A stretch of 37,356 nucleotides of DNA from a virus. The position numbers and the translations under genes were made by a program. The DNA lies in the IMG/VR virus record IMGVR_UViG_3300043411_000252, positions 1-37,356 of that record. One strand, written 5' to 3'. The notes under the pieces are model-generated. The model saw nothing but the letters and a program-made list of their open reading frames with translations, did not search any database and was not told the origin of the DNA. Of this stretch, positions 3,570-37,356 are shown in pieces; the first letter of the stretch is position 1; every line of letters starts with the position of its first letter.

Positions 3570-3805
<236 letters not shown>

Positions 3806-3818
<13 letters not shown>

Positions 3819-7093: not shown

Positions 7094-7255
7094 ATGGGAC
7101 TAATCGACACAGTAAGAATCAACCGAGAAGCACGCGCAAGGCGTGTCCGAATAATTGCGCTCAGAGCTAAAGGCGAAACGCTTGAAGCCATCGGTAAGAA
7201 GTTCGGGATTACCCGCGAACGAGTGCGGCAGATACTAGCAAAGGAATCGAAATGA
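7094..7255 (+). CDS. mini sigma-70 region-4-like helix-turn-helix protein (53 aa)
   Basis: MGLIDTVRINREARARRVRI, then RAKGETLEAIGKKFGITRER and VRQIL: this is a close match to the DNA-binding helix-turn-helix of sigma-70 region 4.2 (TLEEIGKxFxVTRERVRQI). No other sigma regions are present. It may bind -35 elements or the beta flap and regulate the divergent early promoters; known relatives are small phage regulators without a single name. There is no Shine-Dalgarno site; the -10 box ends 6 bases upstream, so leaderless translation is plausible. The stop overlaps a small frame at 7252. Confidence 0.7.
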   Translation: MGLIDTVRINREARARRVRIIALRAKGETLEAIGKKFGITRERVRQILAKESK

Positions 7256-7335
7256 AGTGTCAGGTATATCGCTGTTACGACAAGGATAACGTGGAGCTAA
7301 CCGGGCTGAGCGGCTTCTTGCGAAGCTCCGGTTGA
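7252..7335 (+). CDS. possible 27-aa peptide overlapping attC-like site 1
   Basis: ATGA overlap with the upstream HTH gene, then MKCQVYRCYDKDNVELTGLS and a stop at 7333-7335, inside the right arm of the hairpin at 7284-7349. Two Cys in a C-x5-C arrangement. It has coupling for translation but no other support; it may be a read-through remnant of a gene whose end is replaced by the hairpin. Confidence 0.3.
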   Translation: MKCQVYRCYDKDNVELTGLSGFLRSSG

Positions 7336-7349
7336 GCGTAGGGTTATGC
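7284..7349 (+). other. attC-like recombination site S1 (complete)
   Basis: R box GGATAAC (7284-7290), 5-base spacer GTGGA, arm GCTAACCGG (7296-7304), inner hairpin GCTTC/GAAGC, arm CCGGTTGAGC (7328-7337) with an unpaired G at 7334, 5-base spacer GTAGG, R box GTTATGC (7343-7349). This layout of two R boxes, two 5-base unpaired spacers and an extrahelical base in one arm is that of integron attC sites. The extra base lies on the plus strand right arm, which would make the plus strand the recombining (bottom) strand. Confidence 0.6.
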
Positions 7350-7381
7350 GGCAACCCACGATCGCCGCAGAGGAGAACGAA

Positions 7382-7597
7382 ATGCAAGTGATGGAGATAA
7401 ATGTTTTAGATGGGCAAGGCGTGATCGAAGTCGCGGTTTGTGACTTCATGCAGGAGACGCGGCTGCGCGCTTACGTTTCTGACGCGGCGAAGGCGTTTGC
7501 CAACGAGGACAAACTGGCTGAAGCGGTGCGGTGGTTGGAGGCGAACCAGCCTGATGTTTTCAAGCGCGGCATATGGGACGCGATCAATGCCGCATAA
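7382..7597 (+). CDS. cassette gene 1, hypothetical (71 aa)
   Basis: ATG at 7382 follows AGGAGAACGAA; a longer start at 7346 would lie inside the R box of S1 and is rejected. Product starts MQVMEINVLDGQGVIEVAVC and has a C-terminal helical part (DKLAEAVRWLEANQPDVF). Its stop codon TAA is part of the R box GCATAAC of the next attC-like site, as often seen for integron cassette genes. Unknown function; small, acidic and soluble. Confidence 0.65.
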   Translation: MQVMEINVLDGQGVIEVAVCDFMQETRLRAYVSDAAKAFANEDKLAEAVRWLEANQPDVFKRGIWDAINAA

Positions 7598-7678
7598 CGT
7601 GTAGGTGACCGGCGATGCGCAGCTTTATCGCGCAGCGTCCAGAGAGCGAAGCGAACGGGGTCGACCGTAGGGTTATGC
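7592..7678 (+). other. attC-like recombination site S2 (complete)
   Basis: R box GCATAAC (7592-7598), spacer GTGTA, arm GGTGACC (7604-7610), a GC-rich variable middle, arm GGTCGACC (7659-7666) with unpaired G at 7663, spacer GTAGG, R box GTTATGC (7672-7678). The two R boxes are perfectly complementary. The final 12 bases GTAGGGTTATGC are identical in S1 (7338-7349). Confidence 0.65.
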
Positions 7679-7690
7679 ACTGGAGGAATG

Positions 7691-7903
7691 ATGATTGAGA
7701 AACTGAAATGGAACGACGTAGCCAAAGAAATGCCGGACGCGGGCAGCACGGTGCTGCTTTGGGTGAGAGACCCGAAACCGTTTGCAAACCCTGGTTGGGC
7801 GACCGGCTATCTTGATGACGGCGAATGGCACGATAGCGAGACCAGCCACGTACTGACCGAGATTGTCACGCACTGGGCAGACCCGAATGGCCCCGGTGCA
7901 TAA
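7691..7903 (+). CDS. cassette gene 2, DUF551-like protein (70 aa)
   Basis: Start at 7691 (ATG after GGAGGAATG; an ATG at 7688 is closer to the ribosome site). WNDVAKEMPDAGSTVLLWV followed by GYLDDGEWHDSE matches the pattern of DUF551 proteins (W...P..G..VL......GY.DG.W), small phage and bacterial proteins of unknown role. The gene starts 12 bases after S2 and its TAA stop lies in GCATAAC (7898-7904), the exact complement of the GTTATGC in front of it. Confidence 0.7.
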   Translation: MIEKLKWNDVAKEMPDAGSTVLLWVRDPKPFANPGWATGYLDDGEWHDSETSHVLTEIVTHWADPNGPGA

Positions 7904-7904
7904 C
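7898..7904 (+). other. solitary R box GCATAAC (S3, truncated attC-like site)
   Basis: Complements GTTATGC at 7672-7678, which begins this module. No arm pair follows, so the rest of the site appears deleted or replaced by the ribosome site of the next gene. Confidence 0.45.
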
Positions 7905-7925
7905 TAATAGTCTAAAGGAGTGAAT

Positions 7926-8222
7926 ATGAAAATCGCACAAATTGAAACCGCTATCGACTCTTTTCATCAACACCACAGCAAGAGCGCCGTACAGCATCAA
8001 CTAATCCTAGACTTCATCGCAAGCGAGTTCACCGTATTCGACTGGTCAATAAACGAACTAGCGCACGCTATGGGATGGCGGCACAGTACATTGTCGGCAC
8101 GTTTGAATGAGATGCTCAAGTCAAAGCAGCTTGTCGAATGCGAACACCGGAAAGACCGATACTCAAACGTAATGTGTCGGCCGGTTGCGCTTAAAAAAAC
8201 ACAGCTTGAACTTTTCCACTGA
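7926..8222 (+). CDS. winged-helix DNA-binding protein (98 aa)
   Basis: ATG at 7926 follows AAAGGAGTGAAT. The middle (WSINELAHAMGWRHSTLSAR, LNEMLKSKQLVECEH) is a clear helix-turn-helix with wing, as in MarR/HxlR-like or phage replication-initiation regulators. A role in early regulation or in origin or host-helicase control is possible. C-terminus ends with LKKTQLELFH. No sign of an enzyme domain. Confidence 0.65.
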   Translation: MKIAQIETAIDSFHQHHSKSAVQHQLILDFIASEFTVFDWSINELAHAMGWRHSTLSARLNEMLKSKQLVECEHRKDRYSNVMCRPVALKKTQLELFH

Positions 8223-8397: not shown

Positions 8398-9153
8398 ATG
8401 TCTAAAAAGACAGATATTTGGATGCCGCTTTACATCGGCGACTACCTTAGAGATACCAACAGATTGACTACAGAACAGCATGGCGCATACCTGTTGCTAA
8501 TCATGGATTATTGGGTGAATGGTGCGCCACCAGACGTTGATTCAATCCTCGCTCAGATATGCCGACTAGACGCGAATGCTTGGAGCATTGCTAAATTAGT
8601 CATCAAACCGTTTTTCACAATCACAGATGGAAAACTGACTCACCCTCGGATTGACCGTGAAATTCAGGACGCTAGGACTAAGAAGCTAGGCGCAGTAAGG
8701 AAAGCTGAGGCGGCAGCTAAAGCTAGATGGGATAAAGAAAATGCTTCAAGCATTACTTCAAGCAATAGCCGAAGTATGCTTGAGGATTGCCCGTCACCTT
8801 CACCTTCACCTGATAATACAAATTCAAAAGCTCTTGTTGTCGCTAAAGCCGACAACGTGCCGTTTGGCAAGATTGTAGATTTGTACCATCAAGCACTTCC
8901 GGTCTTACCAAGAGTTGCTGACCTATCTGCAAAACGCAAAGCGTTGGTAAGGGCTAGGTGGCAAGGAATCAAGCCTGAATCTGTTGATGACGGGTTAAAC
9001 GAATTCAAGTGCTTTTTTGATATTGTCAGCAAATCCAAGTTTCTTACAGGGCAATCAACAAACGGTGGCGGGCGACCATTCAGGGCTAACTTTGAGTGGT
9101 TAATGAATGAATCAAATTATCTGAAAGTCATTGAGGGAAATTATCATGCGTAG
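8398..9153 (+). CDS. DUF1376 (YdaU-like) replication-associated protein
   Basis: 251 residues. The N-terminus (TDIWMPLYIGDYLRDTNRLT, EQHGAYLLLIMDYW) is the DUF1376 signature; a long low-complexity linker SPSPSP follows; the C-terminal part is helical. Such proteins in lambdoid and Burkholderia phages replace lambda O-type initiators and are thought to be replication initiators or primosomal partners. The gene for 9146-9499 follows with 8-base overlap, as a helicase-loader-like partner might. Confidence 0.85.
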   Translation: MSKKTDIWMPLYIGDYLRDTNRLTTEQHGAYLLLIMDYWVNGAPPDVDSILAQICRLDANAWSIAKLVIKPFFTITDGKLTHPRIDREIQDARTKKLGAVRKAEAAAKARWDKENASSITSSNSRSMLEDCPSPSPSPDNTNSKALVVAKADNVPFGKIVDLYHQALPVLPRVADLSAKRKALVRARWQGIKPESVDDGLNEFKCFFDIVSKSKFLTGQSTNGGGRPFRANFEWLMNESNYLKVIEGNYHA

Positions 9154-9746: not shown

Positions 9747-10733
9747 ATGAACACAATGCATCTTTTTGCTGGCATCGGAGGCGGCTTATTGGCCGATTTA
9801 ATTCTTGGACACAAACCTACAATTGCAGTTGAATGGGATAGATACGCCTGCCAAGTCCTCAGAGAACGAGCCGCAGACGGATGGTTTCCCAATTTGTCAG
9901 TGTGGGAAGGGGACGTTAGATTGTTCAATCCATCCGAGTACGCCGGACAAGTGGATTGCATCCATGCGGGATTCCCTTGCCAAGACATTAGCGTCGCTGG
10001 CAATCAAGCCGGATTGGGAGAAGGAACTAGAAGCGGCCTCTACCGGGAAGTCCTGCGGATTGCTGGCATCGTTAAGCCCCGACAAATCTTTCTGGAAAAC
10101 GTGTCAGCAATCCTTAGTAACGGACTCGGAACCGTACTCGCAGACCTGGCCGCGATGGGGTATGACTGCCGGTGGATTTGCCTACGCGCATCCGATGTCG
10201 GAGCGCCGCATCACAGGGATAGGTGGTGGGGATTATGTACCTACACCGCAAGCAAGGGATTGGAAAGGGAGCAGCGGCAGGAGTTTGAAGGGGCAGGAGT
10301 GCGACTTACCGACGTATGTTCGGCAGATGTTTGCAACACCGAACACTTTGGACGGAATGCCGCCGAAGTCAGTGGAAAAGATATTAGCGATGAATCGCAA
10401 ACACCGCCCCGGTCGCAGTTATGCGGCAACGAACCTACGGGAGCAAGTGGTTTATGGAAAGATTCAGATGTGGCCGACACCGAATGCCTCAGACAATCGG
10501 GACAGGGGCAACATGAGCGACCCAAGCATTCAGCGCAGGATAGCGATTGGCAAGCAAATAGGCTTATCGACAGCGGTGAAGGAAACGCAGACTGGTGGGA
10601 CGTTGAATCCCTTGTGGGTCGAGTGGCTGGTCGGAGTGCCTATCGGGTGGAGCGTCTTAAAGGACTCGGAAACATACAAGTCCCAATGCAAGCCGCCGTC
10701 GCGTATTCAGTCCTTAATCAAAGAAATGATTGA
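9747..10733 (+). CDS. DNA (cytosine-5) methyltransferase, dual-coded
   Basis: 328 residues. Motif I LFAGIGGG (6-13), the catalytic motif IV GFPCQDISVAG (75-85, Cys78), motif VI ENV (117-119), motif VIII HHRDRWW (155-161) and motif IX/X GLGNIQVPMQAAVAYSVL (306-323) are all present and in order, so the enzyme looks intact. Protects phage DNA from host restriction or regulates expression. Ribosome site GGGGGTGG before ATG at 9747. From 9805 on, the same DNA is also read in the next frame as a second protein (9805-10749). The target-recognition region (about 165-300) coincides with the overlapping frame's conserved segments. Confidence 0.9.
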   Translation: MNTMHLFAGIGGGLLADLILGHKPTIAVEWDRYACQVLRERAADGWFPNLSVWEGDVRLFNPSEYAGQVDCIHAGFPCQDISVAGNQAGLGEGTRSGLYREVLRIAGIVKPRQIFLENVSAILSNGLGTVLADLAAMGYDCRWICLRASDVGAPHHRDRWWGLCTYTASKGLEREQRQEFEGAGVRLTDVCSADVCNTEHFGRNAAEVSGKDISDESQTPPRSQLCGNEPTGASGLWKDSDVADTECLRQSGQGQHERPKHSAQDSDWQANRLIDSGEGNADWWDVESLVGRVAGRSAYRVERLKGLGNIQVPMQAAVAYSVLNQRND

Positions 10734-11314: not shown

Positions 11315-11373
11315 TGCTAAGCCTGAGATAACCGGCGCGCTTTAGCGCGTCCGAGTTGATTGACGGGTTGGCA
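11315..11373 (+). other. attC-like site S4 (degenerate)
   Basis: R box-like TGCTAAG (11315-11321), stem AACCGG+CGCGC (11330-11340), loop TTTA, stem GCGCG (11345-11349), CCG and GTT (11351-11353, 11355-11357) with unpaired T at 11350 and A at 11354, R box GTTGGCA (11367-11373). The right R box complements TGCCAAC at 11901-11907. Spacers are 8-9 bases rather than 5, so the site is degraded or a variant. Confidence 0.45.
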
Positions 11374-11400
11374 GGAAAAACGTAACTACGGAGTGATGAC

Positions 11401-11913
11401 ATGACAGAACTTGATGAACTCAGGAAACTTGCCGAAGCAGCAGACCTGAATATCGACTGGATTGGCGCAGGCCCGACAAGGCACGGCGATCTTATTAGCA
11501 CCAGCGGAAAGCCGCTATTCATCGACAGCGTTTATCTCGACTGCGATGAGCAGGATGTTGACGGAGACGACTATTTCGTTTGCTCTGCTGGTTCTGACGA
11601 GTATGGGCGATTCATTGCGGCGGCAAGCCCACGGACTGTGATTAGGTTGCTTGATGATCTGAAAGCCGCAGAGCAGCAGCGTGACGAATTGATAGCGCAA
11701 AAGTTTGCCGAAGAGCCGCTTCGCAGACAGATTGCAGAACTACAGGAACTCGGCAGGTTCCGTGAAAAGCATTCCCTTACAGGAAGCCCTGAAATTTACG
11801 ATGATCCGTCCGCCGCGTTCCATAAATTTGCCTGTGAAACACATGATGCTCTGAAAGTCGGCGCTGGCGAGACGGCGGTGCAGGGCGACATGCTTTTGCC
11901 TGCCAACGCATGA
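11401..11913 (+). CDS. Ea22-like protein (cassette gene 3)
   Basis: 170 residues. DYFVCSAGSDEYGRFIAAAS followed by PRTVIRLLDDLKAAEQQRDE matches the Ea22/Ead family of lambdoid accessory proteins of unknown function: a compact N-terminal domain followed by a coiled coil (about 90-125). The start follows ACGGAGTGATGAC. The gene lies between GTTGGCA (11367) and TGCCAAC (11901), i.e. inside a cassette-like module; its last codons run through the TGCCAAC box. Confidence 0.75.
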   Translation: MTELDELRKLAEAADLNIDWIGAGPTRHGDLISTSGKPLFIDSVYLDCDEQDVDGDDYFVCSAGSDEYGRFIAAASPRTVIRLLDDLKAAEQQRDELIAQKFAEEPLRRQIAELQELGRFREKHSLTGSPEIYDDPSAAFHKFACETHDALKVGAGETAVQGDMLLPANA

Positions 11914-11920
11914 ATTAGCC
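11901..11920 (+). other. collapsed attC-like site S5
   Basis: R box TGCCAAC (11901-11907) is followed after only seven bases by TTAGCC (11915-11920). TGCCAAC is the complement of GTTGGCA at 11367-11373 and TTAGCC the complement of GGCTAA at 12222-12227, so this is a junction of two modules whose hairpin middle seems deleted. Confidence 0.45.
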
Positions 11921-11949
11921 GGCTGCCACCCACGAAGAAAGGAAGAGAG

Positions 11950-12270
11950 ATGAGATACACGGCGGTATTTGAATTCGAGGAAGGCACTGAACCAGCAGTA
12001 GGCAAGAAAGACGGCTGGCTTGGTGGCGAGTTGTGCGCCGTCCTGTTTTCGGACGGGCTGGCGGAACTGGTGGCCATCAAGAAAGCGGCGGAAACCGTGA
12101 TTGCGGAGAACGCGCACTCCGGGGACGATATTTGGTGGCACCTTGCCGAGTTGCTTGGGTGGGAAGTAGGTGGTGACGATGCGATAAACGGCCTCGGCAA
12201 GAAAGTCGGCGCTGACAAGACGGCTAACGCCGAATTCAGCGGGCGGCCGAAGGCCGGTCCGCTGGAATGA
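11950..12270 (+). CDS. cassette gene 4, hypothetical (106 aa)
   Basis: ATG follows AAAGGAAGAGAG. MRYTAVFEFEEGTEPAVGKK, with Trp-rich and acidic segments (DDIWWHLAELLGWEVGGDD). Its last 17 codons are coded by the attC-like site S6 (ending TANAEFSGRPKAGPLE), as cassette genes often run into their recombination site. Shares a 24-base, 22-match repeat with the end of the Ea22-like gene (11853-11876 and 12201-12224). Unknown function. Confidence 0.6.
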   Translation: MRYTAVFEFEEGTEPAVGKKDGWLGGELCAVLFSDGLAELVAIKKAAETVIAENAHSGDDIWWHLAELLGWEVGGDDAINGLGKKVGADKTANAEFSGRPKAGPLE

Positions 12271-12280
12271 CGTGTTATGT
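12222..12280 (+). other. attC-like recombination site S6 (complete)
   Basis: R box GGCTAAC (12222-12228), spacer GCCGA, arm ATTCAGCGG (12234-12242), inner hairpin CGGCC-GAA-GGCCG, arm CCGCTGGAAT (12259-12268) with unpaired G at 12264, spacer GACGT, R box GTTATGT (12274-12280). Nine perfect arm pairs. The unpaired G is on the same strand and arm as in S1 and S2. Confidence 0.65.
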
Positions 12281-12301
12281 TTCGCGTGGCACAGAAAACA
12301 C

Positions 12302-12329
12302 TTGACACGGTTATTTCGTGTGCTACACT
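12302..12329 (+). promoter_or_regulatory. promoter inside cassette 5
   Basis: -35 TTGACA (12302-12307), 16-base spacer, -10 TACACT (12324-12329). The -10 overlaps a small palindrome GTGTGCTACAC (about 12318-12328) that could be an operator. Would drive 12378-12581 and 12574-12765 independently of upstream phage promoters. Confidence 0.6.
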
Positions 12330-12377
12330 GTATTCATGGTTAGCGATAGGCGCGAACCGCAGACAGGAGCAAAAGCC

Positions 12378-12581
12378 ATGAGCATCAATCAAAGATCAGC
12401 CGACCGCCTTGACAAACTGGCCGCAGAAAAAGGAATCCATGTTCGCATCTCGGAGAGCACGAAGCCGAAGCGCCGCTGGTACTCGATTGGCAACAACCAC
12501 GGATGGCAGTGGCACCAAGTTGCCGGCTTCACCGAAATTGAAGCGGTCGAGAAGTTCATTGCGACATTCGGCAATGCCTGA
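12378..12581 (+). CDS. cassette gene 5a, hypothetical (67 aa)
   Basis: ATG behind CAGGAGCAAAAGCC. MSINQRSADRLDKLAAEKGI, then a basic-aromatic segment (KPKRRWYSIGNNHGWQWHQV) and a helical end (EIEAVEKFIATFGNA). The pair with 12574-12765, an 8-base overlap and a private promoter resemble a small toxin-antitoxin unit, but no toxin family is recognised. Confidence 0.6.
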   Translation: MSINQRSADRLDKLAAEKGIHVRISESTKPKRRWYSIGNNHGWQWHQVAGFTEIEAVEKFIATFGNA

Positions 12582-12765
12582 GCAGAAAATAACCGGCCCC
12601 GGCAAGGGGCCAACAAACCTGAGCGGGGCGCGTGGTGCCTCGCCGGTTTTACGGGTTCGGATGCCGGCCGAATTGCTCGAAGCGGCAGAAGCTAAGGCGG
12701 GGAGAACTGGCGAGAATTTGCCCGACGTGGTTCGCGAACTGCTGCGGCGGTGGGCGCGGAAGTAA
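12574..12765 (+). CDS. cassette gene 5b, ribbon-helix-helix-like protein (63 aa)
   Basis: ATG at 12574 overlaps the end of 12378-12581. VLRVRMPAELLEAAEAKAGR followed by ENLPDVVRELLRRWARK fits a ribbon-helix-helix fold (beta strand plus two helices) as in Arc/CopG-type repressors and antitoxins. It may autoregulate the promoter at 12302-12329 (inference). The stop TAA is one base before ACATAAC (12767-12773). Confidence 0.65.
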   Translation: MPEQKITGPGKGPTNLSGARGASPVLRVRMPAELLEAAEAKAGRTGENLPDVVRELLRRWARK

Positions 12766-12766
12766 A

Positions 12767-12773
12767 ACATAAC
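12767..12773 (+). other. solitary R box ACATAAC (S7, truncated attC-like site)
   Basis: Exact complement of GTTATGT at 12274-12280, which opens the module, placed directly after the last stop codon of the two-gene unit. No hairpin arms follow. Confidence 0.45.
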
Positions 12774-12798
12774 GCGGAAATAAGGCGGCAGTTTGAAA

Positions 12799-14878: not shown

Positions 14879-15394
14879 ATGGTTACAAAGGATCAATCAA
14901 GGCCGGCAAAGAAGTTTGTGCCGAAGAAGACCGCGCCAGCAAAGAAACTCACGACCGCTCAAAAGCTCGATAAGGTCGGCGTCGAAGTCATCATGGAGCA
15001 AGTTGCTGACTGCCAAACACTCAAAGTTATTGCGGCGCAATATGGCGTTTCGGTAGGTAGTTTGCACGAATGGCTGGACTCAAAACCTGAACAGTACGCG
15101 CGCGCACGCGAGAGACAGGGCGACAAGTTGGTCGCAGATATGCTGGAAATCGCTGATACAGCAAGCGAAGACACGTTCATAGACCCAAAGACAGGCGAAG
15201 TAAAAGTCAATCAAGAGGTTGTCGCACGATCACGGTTGCGGGTTGATGCGCGCAAATGGTTGGCCGGCAAGATGCACAGCAAAAAGTACGGCGACAAACT
15301 CGATTTGAACCACAGCGGCAAGATTGATCTGACGGATGATCAGGTGACGGCTCGATTGACACTGTTGCTCGGCAAGGTGTTGCCTGTTGGTTGA
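14879..15394 (+). CDS. terS: terminase small subunit
   Basis: 171 residues. A basic N-terminus, a helix-turn-helix (about residues 44-67; LKVIAAQYGVSVGSLHEWL), then PEQYARARERQGDKLVADML and the C-terminal LRVDARKWLAGKMHSKKYGD, the signature of TerS proteins that recognise packaging sites and stimulate the large subunit. Start at 14879; overlaps the TerL frame by 8 bases. Confidence 0.85.
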   Translation: MVTKDQSRPAKKFVPKKTAPAKKLTTAQKLDKVGVEVIMEQVADCQTLKVIAAQYGVSVGSLHEWLDSKPEQYARARERQGDKLVADMLEIADTASEDTFIDPKTGEVKVNQEVVARSRLRVDARKWLAGKMHSKKYGDKLDLNHSGKIDLTDDQVTARLTLLLGKVLPVG

Positions 15395-16127
15395 TATAGC
15401 AGCGCTCAGTCCGCTTGAGCGTCGTGAATTGCTGGTGTTGCTGGAAGAAAAGAACCGGCGCGAGGCCAGAAAGAAGCTCAGTACCTATTACCCGGACACC
15501 GGACCGCTGCGACGCGAGCTCTACACGAAGCATATGGAATTCTTTACCGCTGGCGGACAGTACCGTGAGCGATGCTTCATGGCGGCGAACCGGATTGGCA
15601 AGACTGAGGGCGCTGGCGGCTACGAGACTGTTCTGCATCTGACGGGCAATTATCCGCACTGGTGGGATGGTGCTGAATTTGATTCGCCAACGAGGTTTTG
15701 GGCGGCAGGCAAGACCAACGAAACAACGCGAGACATCATCCAGGCCAAGTTATTCGGTCGCGTGACTGGTTCTGGCAGTACCAAGCACGTCAGCGGCACT
15801 GGATTGATACCCGGCGACATGATTGGCGACCTGACGTGGAAGGCTGGCGTATCGGACTTGATTGATACGGCGCTTATTAAGCACGAACCGACTGGCGAAT
15901 GGTCGTCCCTGGGCTTGAAAAGCTACCAACAGGGGCGCGGCGCCTTCGAGGGAACGGAGCAGGACGGGATTTGGCTCGATGAAGAGCCGCCGCTCGATGT
16001 CTATGGCGAGTGCTTGATTCGCACAGCAACGACTGACGGACTGATCTACATCACTTTCACGCCGCTGGAAGGCATGAGCGAGACAGTGATGCAGTTCCTA
16101 CCCGGCGGAAAGATACCTGATGCCTGA
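15387..16127 (+). CDS. terL: terminase large subunit, ATPase half
   Basis: 246 residues from a TTG start that overlaps terS. Walker A AANRIGKTE (67-75, Lys72), Walker B IWLDEE (195-200, Asp198, Glu199), coupling motif YITFTPL (221-227). These define the DNA-translocating ATPase domain. The frame stops at TGA 16125-16127 in the linker just after the ATPase (GGKIPDA). The nuclease half continues in the +1 frame from 16120. Together 246 + 252 residues equal a normal TerL. Confidence 0.9.
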   Translation: MVDIAALSPLERRELLVLLEEKNRREARKKLSTYYPDTGPLRRELYTKHMEFFTAGGQYRERCFMAANRIGKTEGAGGYETVLHLTGNYPHWWDGAEFDSPTRFWAAGKTNETTRDIIQAKLFGRVTGSGSTKHVSGTGLIPGDMIGDLTWKAGVSDLIDTALIKHEPTGEWSSLGLKSYQQGRGAFEGTEQDGIWLDEEPPLDVYGECLIRTATTDGLIYITFTPLEGMSETVMQFLPGGKIPDA

Positions 16128-16878
16128 GATTACGCCATCAAAGTACCTGGTCATGGCGGGATGGAACCATGTGCCGCACCTGTCGGACAAGATGAAGCGG
16201 GAATTGCTGGCCGCAACGCCATCGCACTTGCGGGCGGCGCGCAGCCAAGGCATTCCGTCGCTCGGCTCGGGGGCCATCTTTCCGGTCGATGAGGCAATGA
16301 TTCGAGTGGATCCAAAGCCAATTCCGGATCATTGGGTGCAACTCGGCGGGCTGGATTTCGGGTGGGACCATCCAACGGCGGCAGCGGCGCTTGCTTGGGA
16401 TCGTGACGCAGACTGCATCTATGTGACCAAGACCTACCGGCAAAGCGAGAAGCCGCCAGTCATTCATGCGGCAGCAGTCAAGCCATGGGGAGATTGGCTA
16501 CCTTGGGCATGGCCGCACGACGGCAACAACGACACGGCGGCCGGTGAAGCGCTGGCCAAGCAGTACAAAGCCCATGGGCTGAGGATGCTATCAGAGCACG
16601 CAACGCACCCGGCTGGTGGTAATAGCGTGGAAGCCGGGCTGATGGAAATGCTCGACCGAATGGAAACCGGGCGCTGGAAGGTGTTTTCCACCTGCGATGC
16701 GTGGTTTGAAGAATTCAGGCTTTACCACCGCAAGGATGGCAAGGTGGTGAAGGTGCTCGACGATACGCTGTCGGCAAGCCGCTACGCTTACATGATGCGA
16801 CGGTTCGCCACCACGAAACCGCAGAAACGCACTGTGGCGGCCGGATTCGAGCCGCAAAACACTGCATTCGGCTACTAA
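16120..16878 (+). CDS. terL: terminase large subunit, nuclease half
   Basis: 252 residues, starting MPEITPSKYLVMAGWNHVPH; overlaps the ATPase half by 8 bases (ATGCCTGA). GLDFGWDHPTAA (77-88, Asp79, Asp83) is the first RNase H-like metal-binding motif; HDG (133-135) and the C-terminal DDTLSASRYAYMMRR complete the fold. Either a true split TerL assembled from two chains, a +1 frameshift product (GCC-T-GAG), or a sequencing error that breaks one gene. A GGCGGAAAG stretch upstream of ATG 16120 may serve as a ribosome site. Confidence 0.85.
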   Translation: MPEITPSKYLVMAGWNHVPHLSDKMKRELLAATPSHLRAARSQGIPSLGSGAIFPVDEAMIRVDPKPIPDHWVQLGGLDFGWDHPTAAAALAWDRDADCIYVTKTYRQSEKPPVIHAAAVKPWGDWLPWAWPHDGNNDTAAGEALAKQYKAHGLRMLSEHATHPAGGNSVEAGLMEMLDRMETGRWKVFSTCDAWFEEFRLYHRKDGKVVKVLDDTLSASRYAYMMRRFATTKPQKRTVAAGFEPQNTAFGY

Positions 16879-33983: not shown

Positions 33984-36900
33984 ATGACCGCGTTCAGAAA
34001 TAGATTCACGGCGAGTCGCGGCGAACCTCCTGAATCAGATAGCATTCCGCTCGTCATCCCGCCGGGCAACTATGTCGATACTCAGGCACAGCAACAAGCC
34101 GCAGCAGCGTTAGAAACGCAAAGATTAGCCGACCTAGAAGCTCAACGTCTTGCAGGGTTAGAAACTCAGCGTCAGGCTGACTTGGAAGATCAAAGATTGG
34201 CTCAAACGCAGGGGGCGGCGGACTACGAGGCGTTCATTGCTTCGCCAGAAGGCATCATCAATCAAATCGTTGCACCGGTAACGCAACAGGCAGCGCCGAC
34301 TCAGCCAGTCGTCAATTACGACGAATACGGCAATCCAAGTGCAATTGGCCCGATTGATTGGAGCGTCGGCGGCGCGGCAATGACCGCTGGCACGAATTAC
34401 GCCGAGGACATTCGAGCGCAACAAGAAGCAAGGCGCAACGGGATATTCGCCACGACGGACGGACTGGATTCTGAAAACGGGCCTTATGGGTTCTGGAATG
34501 TGGCGCAAGGCGGACAGAACGCAGGCTACGAGGCGTTCATTGCTTCGCCAGAAGGCATCATCAATCAGTCTGTTGCGCAAACAACAGCGCAAAACAATCC
34601 GACTTTCGAGACTGATGTATTCGGCAATCCAATCTTTAACATCGATTGGAGCGTCGGCGGCGAGGCAATGACTGCCGGGACGAATGCGCAACAAGCCAAT
34701 GTCGCTGCGGCGAATACCGCAATGGAAGCAAATTTCGCTTCGCAAGTGGCAAGCGGGAACACCCCTGTTGAGACATTGATTTCGCCCGAAATGAAGGTGG
34801 CAATCCAGCAGTCAATCGACACCGGGCAACCGATGCCGCCGGAACTGCAACAGCAATTCACGGCACTGAATGAATCAATGGGTGCGCGGGCTTTCGATGG
34901 CAATCCGTATGGTGCGTGGAATGTGCCGCAGGGCGGGACGAACGCGGGCTACGAGGCGGCGAACGAGTTACGCCGGACGTCGACCGCTGAAAACGCAACC
35001 GTGGTGCGTACAGTGCTCGCGCAGATGTTTCCTAACGCGACGGTCGGACAGATGGACGCGGCAGCACAGGCGGCATTGAGAGCGAATCAAGGTGCGACCG
35101 AGGGGCATTACACCGAAGTCCATAATCCAGTTGACATCATTACCGGCATTGCGCAGCAACTTGGCGGGGTGCCACAGCAATTCCAAGCGAATCTCGACGC
35201 AATGCGCCCGCAGTTCGACCAGCGTATCGAGCAGATCACGGCGGCGCGAAATGGCTCCGAAGATGCGGCAGACCAGTTGCCGATGGCGGTCAAACTGATT
35301 GCGGCGGCAGCGGGCGGGGTGATACTCGGTCCTGCGCTTGCTACGGCATTTAGCACTGGAACTACAGTCAGTATGGCGGCGGCAATGGGCGGCAATTTCC
35401 TTGGCTCGGCTGTCATGTCAGCAGTGACTGGCGGCGATTGGGTGCGCGATGGCTTAATGAGCGCCGTCGCAGCGGGAGCGAATCACCTGATCAATGCGCC
35501 AACAGGAGCTACTGGAACCGCCGATAGCGCGGCCGGTTCAATGGACATCATCGATGGTGGCACAAGTACGCTCGGCACTGATGGCGTCAATGACTTGGTG
35601 AATTCATCGCAAGCGGCCGCAGACGCAGGAACGGCTTTTGCCGGTGAAGGCGGGTTGATCAATACCGCAACCAATAATGCGTCAAACGTCATTACTGGCG
35701 CTGGCGGACTTCCCATAAAAGAAACAATTCAAACCGCAACAAATGCGGCAACAGCGCCTGGATTCGCCGAAACCCTTTTCAATAAAGTTCAAGCCAATTT
35801 CGTCAACCGAATCACGTCACCGTCAACATGGGTAAAGGCCGCGCTCAATCAAGTTCTCGCCACCGGAGATTTGGATATTAAGGATTGGGTAACTGGCGTA
35901 TTGCAGGGAACCGCAGCGGGCTCGGTCGGTAGCGGGGTGTCGCAGACCTTGCTTAAAACGCTGCCTAGTTTCGGTGATGGCAATGTCGCAGACTCAGGGC
36001 GAGTCCTGTTCGGTAACACGATAGGCGCTATCGCGGGCGCGGCGACTCTGGCGGGTATCAGTGAAGCAGAATTGAAGTCTGCGCTGACTTATAGCGTTGC
36101 TTCTACGGCGGTGTCGTCATTGCTGAAATCGGGACTGGACATTTACACCACCGATGAAAACGGGAAACGAACCATCAGCCCAAAAGGCTATCAAGAGCTT
36201 GCGGCGATTGCCAATAGTATCGGGCAGGTTGCGGGGAACACGGCAAGCGGCGTTGACTTTAGCGATGCCATAGTCAATGGAATGAAGGGCGCGCTTATTT
36301 CTGTTGCCGATATTCAATTCGACATATCCAAAGACTTCGACAAAATACAGTGGAGCAAGGTTACTGATGCGGCAAAGGGTAATGTTGTTGCCGTGAATGA
36401 TGCCGGAACAAATTCAACTGCTGGCGACGGGAATACCGTAGTCGTGCCGGGAACCAGTAACGCATCGAGTGCCGATGTCGATGCTGGCGCTGGCGCAACT
36501 GCTGGGTCAAGCACAACCGCAGGGACGGGGGCTGGAACAGGGACAGGAACCGGCACTACGGTCACGGTCACAGGAACCAATTCAACAACAGAGACAGGGA
36601 CTGCCGTTGATGTAGGTGCTGGCGGTCTGATAAATACTGCCGCGACTGGCACCGGCACTGGTACAGGGACGGGTTCGGGCGTTGGTACTGGCACAGGAAG
36701 CACGATTGTTGTGAGTGGTGCAGGAACAGGAACAGGAACAGGCGTTGACGTTGATGTTGGAGCCGGAAGTGGCACTGGCACTGGCACCGGATTGTCTTTT
36801 GGTGATTTCGTCGGCACTGGAACCGGTACAGATACAGGTTCAACCGTTGTCGTCAATGGTACTGGCGCTGGAACCGGTACGGGTACTGATGTAGATGTTG

Positions 36901-37356
36901 GCGCGGGGACTCGCCCGCAACGACCGCCAATAAGAGATAGGCAAACTGAAGCACCAATTACAACCACGGCAGAAGTCGTCAGGATTGACGATACCGGACG
37001 CACTGGTCGAACCGAGAACACCGAAACGATCACCGTCACTGGGACAGGTGCTGGAACCGGCGCAGATGTTGATGTCGGCGGCGGGGGTTTGGTTGGCGGC
37101 GCTCTGACTGGAACCGGCACGGACACAGGCACTGACTCGACCGTTGTTGTGAGCGGCACAGGAACTGGTAGCGGCACTGGAACAGATGTCGATGTTGGAA
37201 CCGGATCTGGAACCGGGTTGTCTTTTGGCGATTTCGTCGGCACTGGAACCGGTACAGATACAGGTTCAACCGTTGTCGTCAATGGTACTGGCGCTGGAAC
37301 CGGTACGGGTACTGATGTAGATGTTGGCGCGGGGACTCGCCCGCAACGACCGCCAA
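33984..37356 (+). CDS. giant internal virion protein, 3' end outside window (1124+ residues)
   Basis: Open without stop from ATG 33984 to the window end. N-terminal part: Gln/Ala coiled coil (residues 35-75), then two copies of [14 protein letters not shown] and of DWSVGGxAMTAGTN. Middle: helical with a hydrophobic, membrane-like stretch ([20 protein letters not shown]). C-terminal part (residues about 830 on): Gly-Thr dipeptide repeats with DVDVGAG and STVVV(N/S)GTG, in which a unit containing [18 protein letters not shown] occurs twice. Probably an ejection or tail protein; nothing catalytic seen. Confidence 0.65.
34224..34567 (+). repeat. 41-base direct repeat in the giant gene
   Basis: Perfect copies at 34224-34264 and 34527-34567, 303 bases (101 codons) apart, encoding [13 protein letters not shown]. 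Followed by diverged copies of GATTGGAGCGTCGGCGGC near 34356 and 34644. Confidence 0.85.
36804..37356 (+). repeat. 127-base exact direct repeat ending at the window edge
   Basis: 36804-36930 is identical to 37230-37356, 426 bases (142 codons) apart. A mismatch stands immediately to the left of both copies (T at 36803, C at 37229). Confidence 0.95.

Follow-up and report, generated by a model that had tools for sequence, protein, structure and literature searches.

Putative integron cassettes with reversed gene polarity in the early region of a tailed phage

Two clusters of cassettes in a virus record

The window (the whole 37,356-base stretch of DNA analysed here) is an IMG/VR virus record that carries portal, terminase, replication, and NinB-like genes. 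A preliminary description had noted two single-gene modules in its early region, bounded by complementary seven-base boxes and accompanied by two hairpins, S1 and S2; the coordinates of these boxes are correct in the sequence (GTTATGC at 7343-7349 and 7672-7678; GCATAAC at 7592-7598 and 7898-7904). The modules are flanked by a small open reading frame (ORF) with a sigma-like helix-turn-helix (7094-7255) and a DUF1376 replication protein gene (8398-9153), and their G+C content is 55-57% vs. 46-49% in the flanks. A second cluster lies at 11315-12773. We list the features of both clusters below, with bit scores from R1, a covariance model built from 20 bacterial attC sites with S1-like ones excluded (covariation, 0/500 shuffles).

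7284..7349, plus strand: attC site S1 of cassette 1; plus is the recombinogenic (bottom) strand of attC
7290..7597, minus strand (cassette polarity; gene on plus): cassette 1; boxes 7343-7349 and 7592-7598 complementary 7/7
7382..7597, plus strand: cassette 1 gene, 71 aa; ATG at 7382 after a GAGGAGA ribosome-binding site, stop overlapping the box
7592..7678, plus strand: attC site S2 of cassette 2; R1 36.4 bits
7598..7903, minus strand (gene on plus): cassette 2; boxes 7672-7678 and 7898-7904 complementary 7/7
7688..7903, plus strand: cassette 2 gene, 71 aa, DUF551-like; Pfam PF04448 E 6e-4, just below cut-off
11315..11373, plus strand: attC site of cassette 3; R1 23.7 bits, outer box degenerate (CTAAGCC vs. 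CTAACGCC)
11401..11913, plus strand: cassette 3 gene, 170 aa, Ead/Ea22-like; Pfam PF13935 E 4e-5, just below cut-off
11950..12270, plus strand: ORF bounded by a truncated attC half-site (about 11901-11926) and the following attC site; phrog_3876 E 2e-4
12222..12280, plus strand: attC site of cassette 4; R1 32.6 bits, E 1.1e-6
12409..12765, plus strand: cassette 4 gene, 118 aa; weak C-terminal ribbon-helix-helix match, PF01402 E 5e-3, below cut-off

In all four cassettes, the box after the attC site is the exact reverse complement (7/7) of a box that overlaps the last gene's stop codon or directly follows it; that is, each cassette start is complementary at 7/7 positions to the R'' box of its own attC site. 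The boxes of the second cluster are GTTGGCA (11367-11373) and TGCCAAC (11901-11907) for cassette 3, and GTTATGT (12274-12280) and ACATAAC (12767-12773) for cassette 4. The crossover positions of cassettes follow from established integron biochemistry and, given the reversed polarity described below, fall within AA|C at 7289/7290, 7597/7598, and 7903/7904. The insert 7290-7903 is two complete cassettes with nothing missing beyond 7904, and, with their polarity reversed, this is why no hairpin follows that position.

The cassette 1 gene has a partial relative in viral contig L077, and its longer form, from 7346, weakly matches phrog_30014 (here and below, L and G numbers are our handles for loci and records). 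The cassette 2 gene has a GGAGG ribosome-binding site and starts shortly after its attC site. The second cluster is partly decayed. Half-sites of attC (11901-11926 and 12767-12795) follow cassettes 3 and 4, suggesting decay or deletion there, and the ORF at 11950..12270 is probably a remnant cassette.

Elsewhere in the window, the terminase-like gene is present as two overlapping ORFs (15387-16127 and 16120-16878). The same split occurs in the relatives L145 and L183, so it is probably real. Low-complexity repeats at 3570-3818 and 36314-37282 would encode GYGDGN-like peptides, or VAVAVA-like ones on the other strand.

Matches of the hairpins to attC sites

The GTTATGC-type heptamer by itself is unremarkable, with eight occurrences in the window vs. 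4.5 expected. Its placement relative to genes is more specific: among 242 GTT heptamers with a downstream ORF of at least 60 aa, five have an exact reverse complement at the ORF stop, and three of these are attC boxes, which leaves a background of two. An attC covariance-model check, proposed in the preliminary description, returned strong matches to R1 for both S1 (46.0 bits, E 2.8e-10) and S2 (36.4 bits, E 1.1e-7). Two further matches fall in the second cluster, at 12222-12280 (32.6 bits, E 1.1e-6) and 11315-11373 (23.7 bits, E 2.7e-4). All four are on the plus strand, and a clear gap separates them from the next-best match in the window, which is at chance level (12.6 bits). As a control, attC sites of class 1 resistance cassettes score 19-56 bits with R1, the same range as the window sites.

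Folded as single strands, S1 and S2 reproduce the stem, 5-base spacers, and unpaired G that had been described for them, and the hallmarks of attC (R and L boxes, 5-6 nt spacers, extrahelical base) are present in the window. The fold energy of the hairpins alone is modest (z -2.1 for S1, -1.3 for S2). With S1 and S2 242 bp apart and no integrase in the record, the locus has the makeup of a CALIN (at least two attC sites within a few kb).

The outer box of S1 does not fit RYYYAAC, and the strict attC pattern was relaxed to include S1. Searching bacterial genomes with the S1-derived pattern gave 19 loci, many of them in Betaproteobacteria, and 11 of the 19 genomes encode an integron integrase above the NCBI cut-off. 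The closest of these loci are 85-89% identical to S1, while the attC sites of L012, L023, L043, and L050 share 88-92% identity with it over ~60 nt. For S2, matches were found among attC sites of the bacterial arrays L027, L015, and L025, of Dechloromonas and Ideonella, and of class 1 resistance cassettes in L075, and its right half is 85% identical to the Azoarcus plasmid pAZKH. Judged by sequence and fold, S1 and S2 are attC sites, and their types suggest a host among the Betaproteobacteria. The proposal that the cassettes of this phage were taken up by an integron system, or are shared with one, is supported by the attC model matches, by the overall 85-92% identity between S1 and attC sites of bacterial genomes and further viral contigs, and by the presence of the module 2 gene in three other viral contigs, where different attC sites are joined exactly at the boxes.

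Polarity of genes relative to attC

By definition, a cassette has its gene first and its attC site after it, since IntI picks the bottom strand of attC and so aligns the genes with Pc at attI. R1 is asymmetric due to an extrahelical G in the 3' arm, so the strand of a match can be distinguished. L075, the class 1 control, carries its resistance genes on the minus strand and its R1 matches on the plus strand; the known bottom strand is therefore the one that R1 matches. All four cassettes of the window have their genes on this R1 (attC bottom) strand, and none has the canonical gene on the top strand. The modules had been said to have exactly the form of integron cassettes. This holds for the boxes and the attC sites but not for polarity: the extrahelical G is on the coding strand, opposite to bacterial cassettes, and therefore each hairpin belongs to its downstream gene (S1 to module 1, S2 to module 2). 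Likewise, the boxes of S1 do match at only 6/7 positions as described, but this had been attributed to boxes of different cassettes; the outer box, GGATAAC, is off consensus, which under the reversed polarity would be because the phage target site completed it.

We compared the polarity of viral contigs, found by two attC patterns and one cargo pattern and thus not a random sample, with that of bacterial arrays. The clearly longest ORF between neighbouring attC sites lies on the R1 strand in 84 of 116 viral intervals (84:32) vs. 4 of 47 (4:43) in bacterial IntI arrays and plasmids (Fisher p = 2e-14), a count made noisy by mechanical ORF calls and the clipping of genes that run past a box (seen in L154). 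About a quarter of the viral intervals appear canonical. Because these counts are noisy, we added a codon-level comparison and a set fetched by cargo. Codon-level substitutions place the coding strand on the R1 strand in 21/24 shared-cassette comparisons, and the set fetched by a shared gene tail, not by attC, is reversed in 17/17, mostly as one cassette family and not as 17 independent events. Among the sampled viral contigs, attC ahead of the gene is thus the usual order; in bacterial IntI arrays it is rare.

Misfiling of bacterial contigs as viral was considered as a source of reversed cassettes and rejected using terminase and head/tail families. Terminase-positive, IntI-free records give reversed polarity in 15/16 cases by our tally of the ORF counts.

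Phages with CALINs have already been described (Qi et al. 2023, PMC9892861); that paper lists MW202573 as attC-bearing, and we found no mention of polarity reversal in the sections covered. These integrase-free attC arrays carry small unknown genes and DNA methyltransferases, as does the viral set here. All seven genes annotated next to attC sites in the deposited MW202573 lie on the R1 strand, the same reversed polarity as the window, whereas phage TJE1 from that paper is canonical; the window is another phage with other cassettes. R1 matches are absent from the first 49 kb of phage PH101. Class 1 and chromosomal integron arrays share attC structure, boxes, one short gene per cassette, and G|TT breakpoints with the window but differ in that, in the window, the coding strand of the cassettes is the bottom strand of attC, each gene follows its attC site, and IntI is absent. 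We found no report of systematic reversal in phage cassettes in the open-access literature.

Cassette exchange, cargo, and possible origins

The module 2 gene has homologues in L078 (89%), L079 (70%), and L080 (69%), and homology of the window to these contigs is limited to the gene and its boxes. With L078 it stops exactly at 7904, and the 13 synonymous and 8 nonsynonymous changes confirm the coding strand. L079 and L080 share the upstream attC site and the DUF551 gene at 92%, and their downstream attC sites differ, the pattern predicted for a gene whose own attC site is the upstream one; the pairs L032/L055 and L043/L050 follow the same pattern. Neither flanking attC site is shared between the module 2 gene and its L078 homologue, or between L040 and L144; only the gene between the boxes is common, so by sequence some transfers swap only that gene. 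Of the two outcomes that relatives were expected to reveal, breakpoints at the boxes were thus found (at 7904, and around the attC plus gene unit of L079 and L080), but an empty site was not: megablast against known phages gave no near relative of the window, the winged-helix gene (7920-8222) yielded no relatives, and those of the replication and NinB genes are too distant to reveal one. Matches to attC occur in 5/48 viral loci picked solely for a NinB homologue, so phages of this kind do not invariably carry them.

Related viral cassettes carry N6/N4 and cytosine DNA methyltransferases. Cassette 3 has the leader and tail of methyltransferase cassettes, ~90% identical to those of one in L154, around another gene, which ends in the shared tail VGAGETAVQGDMLLPANA; cassettes therefore also recombine internally. 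The conserved tail VGAGxTAVQGDMLLPANA (11854-11926) is present in 19 viral contigs, mostly on DNA methyltransferases and in the window on the Ea22-like gene. The window also encodes a cytosine DNA methyltransferase (9747-10733) without an adjoining attC site, homologues of which are in reversed cassettes of L051, L073, L133, and L141.

Three readings other than insertion of phage-borne reversed cassettes were weighed. Were the hairpins to terminate transcription or to serve as sites of RNA processing between early genes, the box matches would be coincidental. They do lie between co-directional genes and fold as stems; however, no T-run follows 7349 or 7678, an Rfam scan of the window matched zero families, the attC covariance model fits, near-identical copies occur in integron arrays, and box complementarity at stop codons is far over background, all of which make this reading exceedingly improbable. 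It is also improbable, though less so, that the locus is an ordinary CALIN, that is, a bacterial array fragment acquired by illegitimate recombination whose polarity is accidental. Phage CALINs are known, some with attC sites functional with IntI1 (PMC9892861), and the attC types resemble betaproteobacterial arrays, but the reversed polarity is repeated across many unrelated viral contigs, sharply unlike bacterial arrays, the same cassettes occur in several viral contigs, and both ends of the insert are crossover points.

A phage lineage may instead have its own integron system, in which phage IntI moves attC-first cassettes within a gene pool of phages; the window would belong to it, its integrase either lost or borrowed. 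IntI was found above the NCBI cut-off in five viral records, at least three of which (G029, G046, and G055) encode full-length IntI together with head, tail, portal, or terminase genes. Their arrays (L195/L196, L197/L198, and L199/L200) have mixed to mostly reversed polarity, and a reversed cassette gene of G029 is 97% identical to one in the terminase-positive record L144. However, such records are few, and G029 and others may be prophages, some possibly adjoining a bacterial integron. In a small tree, IntI of viral records falls into two groups apart from sampled bacterial IntI and is not one clade; moreover, no TIGR02249 match, and hence no complete integron, was found anywhere in the window record, which may be incomplete. 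We regard this reading as possible but doubtful.

We consider it likely that the locus comprises two complete integron cassettes (7290-7903) inserted in a tailed-phage early region, plus a decayed second cluster, with reversed polarity and IntI acting in trans. That IntI carries out the recombination, and why the polarity is reversed, we infer from sequence comparisons. IntI would be supplied by the host or a co-infecting phage, would recognise the folded plus-strand attC, and would insert cassettes by crossover at G|TT. The first insertion would have used a secondary (attG-like) site, reconstructed from the sequence as ATTAG|TTATCC on the minus strand (predicted empty-site sequence, minus strand: CTATTAGTTATCCTTGTCG), with later cassettes added at existing attC sites. 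The reconstructed target G|TTAT would fit the secondary-site consensus (GWTMW or GNT, cited in PMC4618277), here in a phage and with the empty site itself a reconstruction.

The cassette genes are co-directional with the phage early genes and would be read along with them, each with its own ribosome-binding site just after attC. At attI, the bottom strand of attC determines how a cassette is oriented on insertion; in a normal integron, reversed genes would therefore point away from Pc. The reversed cassettes look adapted to phage operons, and their polarity may also make the recombinogenic strand coincide with whichever strand is single-stranded more often, favouring exchange. How a cassette is oriented at attI depends on the choice of the bottom strand by IntI, and excision increases when a chromosomal array is inverted (PMC11023631). 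In that inverted Vibrio cholerae chromosomal integron, orientation likewise alters which replication strand bears the attC bottom strand, but there the whole array was inverted experimentally, whereas in the window gene and attC are reversed within the cassette. A broader picture can be drawn tentatively, one we hold to be somewhat doubtful: a phage-adapted cassette economy in which attC-first cassettes, with accessory genes and anti-restriction methyltransferases, would be transferred between phages by phage IntI, their recombinogenic strand being the coding strand, independently of attI and Pc.

Altogether, the reversed polarity in this virus and in dozens of related viral sequences suggests that viruses maintain a cassette pool of their own. 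That so many viral cassettes are arranged in reverse implies that their origin or the selection on them is distinct, and reversed cassettes offer a direct route to asking how cassettes form. Phages, some with their own IntI, thus represent a pool of mobile genes that includes DNA methyltransferases.
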